Shown: piece after piece, positions 3,590-20,498 of the stretch
Numbering within the stretch: position 1 is the first letter of the stretch
How the letters are laid out: the number at the start of each line of letters is the position of its first letter
IMG/VR virus record: IMGVR_UViG_3300025132_000385
Span: 1 to 20,788 of that record
DNA length: 20,788 nucleotides
Origin: a virus
Reading direction: 5' to 3' (one strand)
The notes under the pieces: generated by a model
Seen by the model: the letters and a program-made list of their open reading frames with translations, nothing else
Database searches by the model: none
Told to the model about the DNA's origin: nothing
Made by a program: the position numbers and the translations under genes

Positions 3590-3943
3590 ATGAAGGCAAA
3601 CGAGTTAAAGAAAATAATCAATAGATTAGTTAGTGAAGAAGTCAAAAAACAACTCGGCGAGATATTTATTAATGAAATTAAGTCTAAAAGGTCTACGCCA
3701 ATTCAAGAGTCTGTTAAGACAGAAGAGTATCCAACAATGGGTGGTAAAACGTTTACGACAAATGATATGGCTGATTTATTAGGCTATGGTGATATGAAAC
3801 CAAACGGAGGCGGTATGACAAGTGCGGGTGTAGCAGAGATAGCACAGAAAGCAGGAGTAGCACCTGACCAAGTAGACCCTGACGTACAAAAGGCAATCAC
3901 TAAAGATTATCGTGAACTTATGAGTAAAATGAATAATAAATGA
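3590..3943 (+). CDS. small helical baseplate-operon protein of unknown function
   Basis: A 117-residue protein. Residues 1-32 form an amphipathic, probably coiled-coil helix (MKANELKKIINRLVSEEVKK). The middle is Gly-rich (PTMGGKTFTTNDMADLLGYGD), and residues 80-115 are helical again (AGVAEIAQKAGVAPDQVD). The start is well supported by AGGAG about 6 nt upstream of ATG 3590. Its stop overlaps the gp25 start as ATGA (3940-3943). The N-terminus superficially resembles the 'MKxxEL' starts of the cargo genes downstream but has no (L/I)-x-E cleavage-like site at the right place. Position suggests a baseplate component or a chaperone. No function can be named. Confidence 0.75.
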   Translation: MKANELKKIINRLVSEEVKKQLGEIFINEIKSKRSTPIQESVKTEEYPTMGGKTFTTNDMADLLGYGDMKPNGGGMTSAGVAEIAQKAGVAPDQVDPDVQKAITKDYRELMSKMNNK

Positions 3944-16485: not shown

Positions 16486-17532
16486 GTGTTTCGTAGAATA
16501 CCTCCTGATGATATTAGCATAACTCCGTTTACGAGTCACAAATCATTCTCGTTTACGAACAATGACACAGGCTCATTTGGTGTATACTCTTATCAAGCAG
16601 TTTCACAATCTTTGTTTAACTATGCAAGTGCGAGTGATGGTGTTACTTTTGTATCATCGTCAAACTCTTCGTATACATTTTTTAAAAAACCTACTTACTA
16701 TTGGGCTAAAAACAGATACTACAATCAATTCGAAGATAGAACGCCTGGACCGTTTAATAATTTTGGTGGTAGTAATGTTTACACTAAATTAGATATACAC
16801 GGGCAGATAAATGTAATATCAATACCATCTGCATTTTATGGTGAAAAAATAAAACCCGGTAGTGTCGAATTAACAGATAATAGTCCTGGACATAAAACTT
16901 TAACATTACTTGATGACGGCTTTGGGAACTTGTATGATAATACTTATTCTGCGTCGTTTGCCGCATATCAATCTTCATCATACGATTCAAGTAAACTTGT
17001 ACAAAGTGGTTCACAAAAAATAAATGGAGTTGTAGGTAATATATTTTATGCTGATGGTATAATAATAATCACAGAAACAGGAAGTTTGTATAATGGTGTA
17101 GGAATAGGTACCGGTAGTGATGGTTGGGAAATTGATTTTAAATCATCAGTAAAAAACTTAGAGTATGAATATCTATGTGATGTACCTGAATTTAAATTTA
17201 ATAAATCTACAAATATATCTACGACATTTGAACGAAGTGGTTCTATAGAAGTACCTGAAAGTGGTTCTGCATATAAATTTTTTCCTCCCGGTAACTCACC
17301 TAAATATAACTTAAATTCAATTAGTGCGAGTTCATATGGTGACAAATCATTCGGTGCAACAGATAAGGTCGCACCTTTTGTAACCGCATCTACGTTCGCA
17401 CCTTATATAACACAAATTGGACTCTACAACGACCAAAATCAGCTGTTGGCTGTAGGTAAATTAGCTAACCCAATAAAGAACGATGACGAATTAGCACTCG
17501 CTTTTGTTGTACGTTTTGACGTTAACTCATAA
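16486..17532 (+). CDS. virion structural protein, paralogue B, GTG start
   Basis: A 348-residue protein paralogous to the preceding gene product across its central and C-terminal parts. It ends APYITQIGLYNDQNQLLAVGKLANPI...FVVRFDVNS. It starts with GTG, the only non-ATG start supported in this window. The start is convincing because AAGGAGG (16472-16478) lies 7 nt upstream and the reading frame is open and beta-rich from there. The N-terminal 100 residues (RRIPPDDISITPFTSHKSFSF) differ from paralogue A, suggesting that the two copies have specialised, for example by binding different partners in the same ring. The stop codon lies inside a hairpin that reaches into the next gene's start (17522-17550). 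Confidence 0.78.
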   Translation: MFRRIPPDDISITPFTSHKSFSFTNNDTGSFGVYSYQAVSQSLFNYASASDGVTFVSSSNSSYTFFKKPTYYWAKNRYYNQFEDRTPGPFNNFGGSNVYTKLDIHGQINVISIPSAFYGEKIKPGSVELTDNSPGHKTLTLLDDGFGNLYDNTYSASFAAYQSSSYDSSKLVQSGSQKINGVVGNIFYADGIIIITETGSLYNGVGIGTGSDGWEIDFKSSVKNLEYEYLCDVPEFKFNKSTNISTTFERSGSIEVPESGSAYKFFPPGNSPKYNLNSISASSYGDKSFGATDKVAPFVTASTFAPYITQIGLYNDQNQLLAVGKLANPIKNDDELALAFVVRFDVNS

Positions 17533-17550
17533 TTATAGTTATGAAGTTAA
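17522..17550 (+). promoter_or_regulatory. hairpin spanning the stop of one gene and the start codon of the next
   Basis: TTAACTCATAA (17522-17532) pairs with TTATGAAGTTAA (17539-17550) around the 6-nt loop TTATAG: 11 Watson-Crick pairs with one bulged A. The 3' arm contains the ATG at 17541, and the 5' arm ends at the TAA stop of the preceding gene. There is no Shine-Dalgarno. A ribosome finishing the upstream gene would open the stem, which would couple translation of the first cargo gene to paralogue B. Only two pairs are G-C, so in an AT-rich genome this could partly be chance. Confidence 0.45.
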
Positions 17551-18305
17551 AAGACATACTAAATGAAAAAATTGAAATCGATGTTGAAATTGGTGATACT
17601 ATTCTTACAGGAAGATTTAAGAATAAAAAGACTAAAGTAAATTCTATTGAAACTGACCAACACGGTATGCCTACTATTAATGGTAGAAAAGTTACTACGT
17701 TTCGTACTATGAAAAAAGATGAAGGTACTTGTGGATATAGTATTGATGGCGAAGGTGATGATGAACCTGCAGGACCACATTTACTGAAGAAAGAAAGCAA
17801 AGACGAAATTAAAGTTATACACAACTTTCTTACAAAACATACAAAATCTGCTAAGAAAGCATCTGATATGATTAAGAAATATTACAAAAAAGTCAAGAAA
17901 CAATTCAGAGGAGATTCTTCGAGAGATGTAGCAATGGCTATTGTAGGCTATGATGTTTTAGGAGAAAATAAAGATTTATTTAAAATGTACACACAGGCTA
18001 TGAAGATGATGCCTGGTTCTCCTAAACAAAAAGAACTTATAAAGAAAATTAGTTCTTTACGAAAAAAATTAAAGATGGATGAAGCAAAAGCAAAAAGAGA
18101 TTACAAAGACGAGTACAAAAAATTTCAATCTTCTACAAAGGCTAAAAAATATAGAGCAGAATTAAATAAGTACAATCGTAAGAAAGGTACTTATGGAAAT
18201 GGAGATGGTAAAGACGCTTCACATAAAGGCGGAAAGATAGTGGGATTTGAATCACAATCTAAGAACAGAGGTCGTAGAGAAAAAAGTCGTTTAAAGAAGA
18301 AATAG
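17541..18305 (+). CDS. putative head-packaged internal protein 1: basic, with capsid-targeting-like N-terminus
   Basis: A 254-residue, strongly basic protein. It begins MKLKDILNE, which ends in an (L/I)-x-E site like those cut by the T4 prohead protease and matches the starts of the next two genes. Residues 12-57 form a small beta domain (VEIGDTILTGRFKNKKTKV...DQHGMPTINGRKVTTFR), which I recall from other marine phage proteins. Residues 88-175 are Lys-rich helices. Residues 204-254 (YRAELNKYNRKKGTYGNGDG, then KDASH...NRGRREKSRLKKK) are extremely basic. The D225-x-x-H228...N242 spacing faintly recalls an HNH nuclease, but metal-binding residues are not convincing. It has no Shine-Dalgarno and its start lies in a hairpin. 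I infer a DNA-binding internal head protein. Nuclease activity is speculative. Confidence 0.6.
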   Translation: MKLKDILNEKIEIDVEIGDTILTGRFKNKKTKVNSIETDQHGMPTINGRKVTTFRTMKKDEGTCGYSIDGEGDDEPAGPHLLKKESKDEIKVIHNFLTKHTKSAKKASDMIKKYYKKVKKQFRGDSSRDVAMAIVGYDVLGENKDLFKMYTQAMKMMPGSPKQKELIKKISSLRKKLKMDEAKAKRDYKDEYKKFQSSTKAKKYRAELNKYNRKKGTYGNGDGKDASHKGGKIVGFESQSKNRGRREKSRLKKK

Positions 18306-18306
18306 T

Positions 18307-19209
18307 ATGATTAAATTAAAACACTTACTATTAGAAGCTGATAAATGGTATCCTGCTCATACACGAGATGCGATTAATTGGGTAACGATGAAACAACATA
18401 TACCGTTATATGCAAAACAAATGGAAACACTTGTTGGTAAAGAAAGAGTAAATTCATTTCACGTTACAAGTCCTATTACAATAAAAAATATGAAAGATTT
18501 GATTGGTAAGAAATCAAAATCTATATCTACATTTACACGTGCAAACAAAGGTTCAGCACTTGCAAAAGGTCGTGGAGTTCAAACAGGAAGTGGTGGTGTT
18601 ATATTTTATTTAGAAGGAACTATGTTAGCAAGAAATTATATGGACTTCGATACGGTTCCTGATAAGAAAGGTATGAGATGGGTAGATGTTCATTATCTTA
18701 CAAGAGACAGAAAACATTTTAGCGACTATCTAACAAAACAAGGTATACCTGATACTTCTAAATGGAGAGATAAAGAATGGAATATGCGAGAAAAAATAAA
18801 AAATTCTCCTGAGAACAAAGATTTAAATTGGAAAGAATTAGAAAAATTAGTAAAAGACAAAATGAATCAGGAAGCAAATAAATTAATTAAAAAACATATT
18901 GATGCTTCAAACAAATATTTAAAGAAACACAAAGCAGATTTAATTAAAAATCTAAGAACACCTGGAGATAAAGGTTCTGCTTGGTGGAATGAAGTTCTTG
19001 TATATGATATTAAGGTAATAGATGTATTTGTGTTAAAACGAGTTTGGGATGATTATTATTTCCAACAAGATTCAGGATATGATGATTATAAACAAGATGC
19101 TTATAAAAAAGATTTATTAAGTTATGTACCTGAGAGTAAAATTACAATAGGAACACCGGCACAATTTCGTAAATGGTATAATGCGAGAGATGGTATTTTA
19201 GATGAATAA
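18307..19209 (+). CDS. putative head-packaged internal protein 2, possibly ADP-ribosyltransferase-like
   Basis: A 300-residue protein beginning MIKLKHLLLE|A, the second of three adjacent genes with this type of start. Residues 49-104 run NSFHVTSP, then KSISTFTRANKG (71-82), then GGVIFYLEG (96-104). Near residue 224 comes SAWWNEVLVYDIKVIDVFVL. The order of an aromatic-basic motif, an S-T-x-T strand and a late Asn-Glu-Val strand resembles the R-S-E layout of T4 Alt/Mod ADP-ribosyltransferases, where the NE(M)EV strand holds the catalytic Glu. The expected first Arg is His52 here, and only one Glu of the ExE pair is present. The fold call is therefore tentative. It starts 1 nt after the preceding stop, without a Shine-Dalgarno, so it is coupled. 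Residues 155-215 are a Lys-rich helical insert. Confidence 0.5.
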   Translation: MIKLKHLLLEADKWYPAHTRDAINWVTMKQHIPLYAKQMETLVGKERVNSFHVTSPITIKNMKDLIGKKSKSISTFTRANKGSALAKGRGVQTGSGGVIFYLEGTMLARNYMDFDTVPDKKGMRWVDVHYLTRDRKHFSDYLTKQGIPDTSKWRDKEWNMREKIKNSPENKDLNWKELEKLVKDKMNQEANKLIKKHIDASNKYLKKHKADLIKNLRTPGDKGSAWWNEVLVYDIKVIDVFVLKRVWDDYYFQQDSGYDDYKQDAYKKDLLSYVPESKITIGTPAQFRKWYNARDGILDE

Positions 19210-19232
19210 AATGCTTGACTTTATGGTAAATT

Positions 19233-19997
19233 ATGATTAAGTTAACACGTATATTGAATGAGTATATATCTGCAGGACAGCTGAATCAAGTTGAAAAGTA
19301 TCTTGATAAAGTTTGGGCTAAAGTAGGTATTGATGTAGAGTTCACACGACATTTTCACGATAGAGTAAATGATGCGAGAAATGGTAAACCTATATCTACT
19401 GCTGAAGTTATAAAGATATTTAGACTTGTTTATAAAAAGTTTGGTAAACAAATTTCTTCTTTACCTGATGGTATTAATTTACTATTCAAAGATATGAGAA
19501 GTGACATCAATGTACCTGTAGTATTAAGATACGACAAATTAAATAAAGAAATAGATATGATATCAAAAACGGTTATGAGAAAAAAGAATTTTAAATCTTC
19601 TACAAAAAAGTATTCTGTAGAAAATAAATTAAACGAAAGAGTAGATTATTTACATATAGGACAAGAGTTAGTAAAAGCATATGGTCTAAAATCAAGAGTT
19701 AGATTTACTTCAGGAAGTACATTAGCAGAATATGTTCCTGAAACTGATACAATATATCTTAGGAAATCTTATCCAAATATGAAAGAATTTATCATAACCG
19801 TTTTACACGAGATTAAACACGCTCTTGATGCTCAACAACTCGGTAGAAAAAAGTTTATGAAGAAATATACTCAAGCAGGAACAATGGCTCAGTATAAAGG
19901 ATTAGACCCACACGATGATAATAAGTGGGAAGAACGTGCTGAGAGATGGGCGAGAAACGAATTTAAACGAATAAAAAATAAATTGAATTTTAAATAA
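19233..19997 (+). CDS. putative head-packaged internal protein 3: zinc metalloprotease-like
   Basis: A 254-residue protein beginning MIKLTRILNE|Y, the third capsid-targeting-like start in a row. Residues 37-120 form a domain (FTRHFHDRVNDARNGKPIS, ending TVMRKKNF) that I recall from marine phage proteins of unknown function. The C-terminal domain has a clear zincin motif: ITVLHEIKHALD with H192-E193-x-x-H196. A downstream helix, WEERAERWARNEF (232-244), could supply the third ligand Glu, as in ImmA/IrrE-type or related small metalloproteases. A second LNE (133-135) lies exactly between the two domains. No secretion signal is visible. It follows a 23-nt gap with no Shine-Dalgarno. I infer a protease delivered with phage DNA. 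Its target is unknown. Confidence 0.65.
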   Translation: MIKLTRILNEYISAGQLNQVEKYLDKVWAKVGIDVEFTRHFHDRVNDARNGKPISTAEVIKIFRLVYKKFGKQISSLPDGINLLFKDMRSDINVPVVLRYDKLNKEIDMISKTVMRKKNFKSSTKKYSVENKLNERVDYLHIGQELVKAYGLKSRVRFTSGSTLAEYVPETDTIYLRKSYPNMKEFIITVLHEIKHALDAQQLGRKKFMKKYTQAGTMAQYKGLDPHDDNKWEERAERWARNEFKRIKNKLNFK

Positions 19998-20168: not shown

Positions 20169-20498
20169 ATGATTTCAACATCCGCACGAAAGGCTAAAGG
20201 CCGACGTTTACAAAATAAAGTTCGAGAACTTTTAATCGAAAAATTTGATTTTCATCCTGACGATATAAAGACCGCAGTTATGGGTGAATCAGGAGAAGAT
20301 ATTAGATTAGCACATTCTGCACGAAAGAAATTTCCATTCTCTGTAGAATGTAAGAACCAAGAAAAATTAAATATATGGTCATCGTTAGAACAAGCAGAAG
20401 ATAACGCAAGTGACTATAAACCATTATTAATATTCAAACGTAATCGTTCAAAGACTTACGTTACATTATCACTTGAGGATTTTTTAGATTTACTATAA
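20169..20498 (+). CDS. small PD-(D/E)XK nuclease (VRR-NUC/Hjc-like)
   Basis: A 109-residue protein with the motif order of a PD-(D/E)XK nuclease. There is a first helix with E20 (GRRLQNKVRELL), then GESGEDIRL with D44, then FPFSVECK with E60-x-K62 on a strand, followed by a helix with LEQAE (73-77). Length and layout fit stand-alone phage nucleases related to archaeal Hjc or VRR-NUC proteins, which cut branched or single-strand-containing DNA. It is directly upstream of the primase gene, consistent with a role in replication or recombination intermediates. ATG 20169 is preferred because the motif-bearing helix starts soon after it, though there is no Shine-Dalgarno. Its substrate cannot be predicted from sequence. 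Confidence 0.75.
   Translation: MISTSARKAKGRRLQNKVRELLIEKFDFHPDDIKTAVMGESGEDIRLAHSARKKFPFSVECKNQEKLNIWSSLEQAEDNASDYKPLLIFKRNRSKTYVTLSLEDFLDLL

Follow-up and report, generated by a model that had tools for sequence, protein, structure and literature searches.

Three adjacent genes of a T4-like phage share a head-targeting-like leader that recurs on many unrelated proteins of its relatives

Results

The window studied here, a 20,788-base fragment of a T4-like phage (IMG/VR record IMGVR_UViG_3300025132_000385) known from sequence alone, carries three adjacent plus-strand genes, A, B and C, whose products begin with closely similar short leaders and differ from each other beyond them. Gene A (17541..18305, 254 amino acids, isoelectric point (pI) 9.9) starts MKLKDILNE|K, gene B (18307..19209, 300 amino acids, pI 9.5) starts MIKLKHLLLE|A and gene C (19233..19997, 254 amino acids, pI 9.8) starts MIKLTRILNE|Y, the bar marking the predicted cut and the residue after it being P1'; one base separates A from B, and 23 separate B from C. 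The leaders themselves (17541..17567, 18307..18336 and 19233..19262, all on the plus strand) fit the pattern M-x(0-2)-K-phi-x-x-phi-phi-x-E, phi being a hydrophobic residue, and among the genes of the window only these three do so. A preliminary description of this DNA had pointed to three adjacent open reading frames (ORFs) with a common N-terminus and unrelated bodies, and the arrangement is present as described. Its predicted cuts, before K10, A11 and Y11, hold as positions, with the qualification that the A leader has nine residues, one fewer than the ten of B and C. AlphaFold gave these regions low confidence, residues 1-12 of B being disordered and residues 1-11 of C having a predicted local distance difference test score (pLDDT) below 50.

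Across the loci of related contigs the leader pattern stands at the start of 124 of 2,556 distinct ORFs and at 14 of 14,892 internal methionines, a 52-fold enrichment. When N-terminal residues were shuffled 50 times in a subset of 1,973 ORFs the mean number of matching starts was 1.7 and the maximum 5, against 121 observed, and together the two tests rule out chance similarity. Of 240 cases that match the pattern upstream of its last fixed position, 124 have Glu there. When IMG/VR was scanned without bias for the DNA pattern of M-I-K-[LF]-K-D-[LF]-[LF]-x-E, at least 120 stretches were returned, and the 109 complete ORFs among the matches listed could be sorted by their bodies into 55 clusters between which no homology was detected; the search of related phages for this leader on other proteins, which the preliminary description had proposed, thus turned up many unrelated cargos. 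The same pattern was matched 13 times in bacterial and archaeal genomes (257 Gb), mostly within longer frames or tiny ORFs. Leader genes stand in unbroken runs of three to six in relatives' contigs, and other tagged cargo matches NUDIX, zeta toxin, lysozyme, PAP2, 2'-5' RNA ligase/Acb1, helix-turn-helix and sigma-70 region 4 families. The leader-tagged protein with the Acb1 match, a family acting against the cyclic-oligonucleotide-based anti-phage signalling system (CBASS), lies on the minus strand of contig L304 (10674-11222), a locus assigned by eye through its EPHTTLLF motif.

The phi-x-E ending is kept when the rest of the leader changes, as in zincin relatives of C that start MGKFKKLME|V, MGKFRDLWE|A or MGKFKKMME|S, and E10 of B is invariant in 14 of 14 homologues. 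Within a single genome the third codon positions of the leaders vary while the residues stay fixed, with 3.07 differences per pair in contig L142 and 4.0 in L241. Because the ending is kept in orthologues and the codons drift synonymously, the leader peptide itself is under selection.

The cassette is bounded upstream by a gene for a 348-residue tail-type protein (16486..17532, plus strand; start MFRRIPPDD), which ends 8 bases before A, and downstream by a PDDEXK/RusA-like nuclease gene (20169..20498, plus strand). Between the same flanks A, B and C are all present in contigs L081, L082 and L084; in L086 and L089 the gene between A and C is a different one (LNEVIACGEC or REVIACGEC); and L090 has A and C only. 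In the more distant contig L142 (7683-10387) six consecutive genes start M[IV]KLKxL[LV]xE and have different bodies, the last two being a relative of B followed by a relative of the N-terminal domain of C. The slot, with the tail gene on one side and the PDDEXK nuclease gene on the other, is a variable cargo cassette, in which the flanks are kept and leader-tagged genes are swapped, added or dropped; the cargo in L086, L089, L090 and L142 differs from that of the window, as would be expected of a variable locus bearing leaders of T4 type. No T4 late promoter (TATAAATA) was found near the cassette, the window holds fewer copies than expected, and a promoter consensus scan gave no excess.

The body of A is modular, its leader being followed by a DVEIGD...FKNKK module, a PGSPKQ helix module and a basic C-terminal module that looks HNH-like by eye, and these modules occur separately or fused in contigs L048 and L002. 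The C-terminal module (residues 183-252; 18087..18296, plus strand) matches phrog_6437 (E 4.9e-14) and has at least 587 related stretches, being very common on marine virus contigs; it also occurs in cyanobacterial and Flavobacterium phages. Pfam matches of A to GWxTD, Duffy binding and similar families were weak and below cut-off, and were rejected. The earlier proposal of a basic DNA-binding protein is weakly supported by the charge of A and its HNH-like module.

Gene B consists of its leader and an ADP-ribosyltransferase-like (ART-like) domain, with a predicted structure of pLDDT 80.6. H52, S74 and E229, which correspond to an ART-like R/H-S-E set, are invariant in 14 homologues and are the putative catalytic residues. 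Fold searches of B against the PDB and a viral library gave no significant match, the weak PDB matches including PARP14, Tpt1/KptA and PltA, and B had no Pfam or PHROG match and no homologue among INPHARED phages. The suggestion that B may be an ADP-ribosyltransferase draws weak support from the conserved H-S-E residues.

Gene C combines a RelE/BECR-like N-terminal domain, a phi-x-E joint and a zincin domain. The N-terminal domain (residues 12-122; 19266..19598, plus strand) belongs with phrog_23027/phrog_14518 and is found in a protein of Flavobacterium phage immuto (YP_010114603.1) that starts MKKSQLRQIIKE|A and, in phage phiM12, at the end of a 602-residue protein. A PDB fold search with C returned nothing significant, with weak HigB2 and RelE matches to the N-terminal domain (E 0.09-1.1). 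At the joint between the domains lies a second candidate cut site, KLNE|RVDY (residues 132-135; 19626..19637, plus strand), within a segment, residues 123-136, of pLDDT below 50. In 65 of 65 zincin ORFs checked, R[VIMA]D[YF] follows a Glu that has L, I or V two positions ahead of it, whether this lies N-terminally or at an internal joint; the Glu may have a structural role. The C-terminal domain carries the zinc-protease motif HEIKH (residues 192-196; 19806..19820, plus strand) and matches MPTase-PolyVal with E 2.1e-4 and 21.8 bits, below the curated cut-off of 27.5 bits; it probably acts like a zincin, with no formal membership of that family. The earlier reading of C as a zinc protease is weakly supported by the motif and the sub-threshold match, and it missed both the RelE/BECR-like domain and the second phi-x-E site.

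A fused form of this cargo is found in L048 (652-5643), where one protein of 1,663 amino acids joins an A-like module, the phrog_6437 module, a tRNA-nucleotidyltransferase domain, a B-like domain (residues 517-801, 33% identity) and a weak cytidylyltransferase-like match. Most phi-x-E sites of this protein lie where modules meet (15, 76, 152, 513, 801 and 1075) and few lie inside modules, a count that is suggestive only, because the limits of the domains were taken from alignments. The protein looks like a polyprotein that could be divided by a prohead protease.

The closest long relative of the window is G001 (126.5 kb, the L086 contig), whose C is 93% identical and whose portal, gp21 and gp23 genes lie in one cluster, gp21 (92835-93440) matching phrog_207 (E 4e-54). 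A gp21 gene is present in 19 of 33 relatives' contigs, G001 included. In gp23 of 20 relatives the motif Q-[LI]-[IV]-x-E|[ASN] is conserved directly before W[SA]GVALPLVR, so that phi-x-E followed by a small residue, the specificity looked for in the protease of this clade, is found at the gp23 cut position. This position corresponds to the site at which T4 gp23 is cut. Outside the slot, every strict leader gene of G001, G003, G014 and G008 is found no more than 4 kb from gp21, with the exception of one poor match (G001, 7955), and one gene family situated between portal and gp21 has either a MIKLKDLLxE or a STYKKMMAE leader. Neither this family nor the zincin relative from L097 has a homologue among INPHARED phages. 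Elsewhere in G001 (31559-32923) three prepilin-like proteins stand in a row (GFTLIELIMVMIILGILGAVAIPR), which is unusual for a phage.

Discussion

The best explanation of these data, to which we give a probability of about 0.8, is that the shared starts are leaders that target packaged, probably injected cargo to the head and are cleaved by gp21. This capsid-targeting, prohead-protease interpretation, put forward in the preliminary description, is supported by gp21 in a close relative, the gp23 cut site, the clustering of leader genes with head genes, the unrelated cargos and the conserved phi-x-E. The lysine-containing amphipathic peptide (K-L-x-x-L-L-x-E) would dock A, B and C in the scaffold core during prohead assembly, a gp21-type prohead protease would cut after phi-x-E so that the mature proteins stay with the DNA, and these would probably be delivered to the host at infection, C probably being cut twice to yield a RelE/BECR-like and a zincin fragment. 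From sequence evidence we infer strongly that the leader would target proteins to the head, and we infer that A, B and C would be cut and packaged; injection and activity directed at the host may follow, at one further step.

Several observations weigh against this interpretation. The check for a gp21-like protease gene found none in the window, itself a 20,788-base fragment; G001 has one, as do 18 further contigs of relatives. Leader families vary more in P1' (S, K, G, A, D, N and others) than the gp23 site does, and the K of A and Y of C are unlike the A, S or N found at the gp23 cut. G001 also has looser leader-like starts far from gp21, for example MVKLKELIE|A at 80754. When 21 long contigs were sampled by the leader pattern alone, gp21 or gp23 was found in only 13; of the eight without a match, four were checked further. 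G004 stops short of gp21, since its terminase and portal genes lie at its very end, and G041, G043 and G045, searched for terminase, portal, gp21 and gp23 families, gave no match and may be fragments without a head module. In G048 and G052 gp23 was found and gp21 was not, with gp23 at 3-4 kb from the contig end compared with a usual gp21-gp23 distance of 5-10 kb. Most pattern-sampled contigs without gp21 or gp23 look like fragments. G041 (the L247 contig, 207 kb), in which the leader is present, is either a fragment or a real exception.

It should be considered that the leader might direct proteins to the prohead core merely as scaffold or core components, cut and lost like T4 gp67 and gp68, and the position of leader genes beside gp21 and gp23, with one family between portal and gp21, would suit such a role. 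However, B and C have enzyme-like domains with conserved catalytic-type residues, other cargo matches NUDIX, zeta toxin, lysozyme and Acb1 families, and the cargo of the slot is swapped between close relatives, unlike core scaffold genes, which makes this alternative unlikely. We regard as very unlikely an uncut docking peptide for some other assembly, such as a tail or replication complex, in which phi-x-E would simply be part of a binding helix: the leader is also found next to gp21, no feature of it is more constant than the Glu, which persists in leaders that otherwise differ, and phi-x-E recurs at inner joints of fused proteins, even though the slot of the window lies between tail and replication genes, outside the head cluster, and the P1' residues are loose. 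The shuffling of slot genes between relatives could also reflect a DNA-level element, a recombination joint or a conserved translation start, in which the peptide has no role of its own. Fixed residues combined with synonymous codon variation leave this with hardly any credibility, and a recombination joint was rejected because leader codons vary synonymously.

Head-targeting leaders are best described in T4, where internal proteins IPII and IPIII start MKTYQEFIAE|A and are cut after E10; targeting depends on residues 4 and 7 and cutting on 8 and 10, and the first ten residues suffice (PMC9026906). In this numbering B and C have L4, L or I at 7, L8 and E10, with A shifted by one residue. Like IPI, IPII and IPIII (PMC9026906, PMC3012670, PMC12373910), the proteins described here have a leader of about ten residues, with hydrophobic positions 4, 7 and 8 and Glu 10 as in IPII and IPIII; both sets are basic and otherwise unrelated, lie at a variable locus and occur in the same kind of phage, one with gp21. 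They differ in the leader itself, MIKLKDLLxE here as against MKTYQEFIAE, and in belonging here to distant T4 relatives, with many more cargo families, enzymes, fused multi-domain proteins and runs of up to six genes. T4 Alt, an injected ADP-ribosyltransferase whose leader is cut at ITE-6 (PMC5694885), has in common with B the phi-x-E leader end and an ART-like character; however, no homology was detected between them, and B is ART-like by three conserved residues and weak fold matches. Polyvalent proteins (PMC5512222) likewise combine zincin, BECR-like, ART-like and other domains, which are predicted to be carried into the host with phage DNA, and the fused L048 form resembles them, whereas the window has its domains distributed over separate short leader-bearing proteins, and the joints have phi-x-E that a prohead protease could cut. 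Internal ejection proteins in the heads of the giant phages phiKZ and SPN3US are also processed by a prohead protease at x-E motifs, but their propeptides are mostly longer than 100 residues and cut at A/S/G-x-E, where those here have 9-10 residues and end in L/I-x-E (PMC5694885). The open-access literature that we found describes such leaders in no phages other than the T4-like ones of enterobacteria and, in a different form, giant phages. The principle is known from the T4 internal proteins; the leader consensus, the phage clade and the wider cargo are new.

Judged by gp23 of G001, the closest phages in culture are Microcystis phage Mel-JY01 and Flavobacterium phage immuto, at 52-54% identity. 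Several of their head-region genes and genes with the N-terminal domain of C start with other phi-x-E leaders (MKKSQLRQIIKE|A, MENFDLKKFLVE|N and MKIKKIIFE|D), and the leader idea is therefore testable in existing isolates. The open-access literature yielded no paper on Mel-JY01 and no virion proteomics of immuto. At 3590-3943 the window has a gene starting MKANELKKIINRLVSEEV, which resembles the MKKSQLRQIIKEA leaders of immuto.

It is an even call whether distant T4-like phages of aquatic bacteria as a group carry a large, modular, head-delivered protein set marked by a MIKLKDLLxE-type tag, with cassettes that are swapped, dozens of cargo families (ART-like, NUDIX, zeta-toxin, PAP2, lysozyme, Acb1-like anti-CBASS, zincin and RelE-like among them) and some fused polyproteins that the prohead protease would divide at phi-x-E joints to yield several effectors each. 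A ten-residue tag that predicts packed, probably injected proteins would make hypothetical proteins of uncultured phages candidate effectors of the first minutes of infection, predicted anti-defence enzymes included, and would provide a simple sequence rule for finding them. These observations suggest that the capsid-targeting system of T4 is much broader than the T4 internal proteins, and that a large unexplored set of proteins may be delivered to bacteria with viral DNA.
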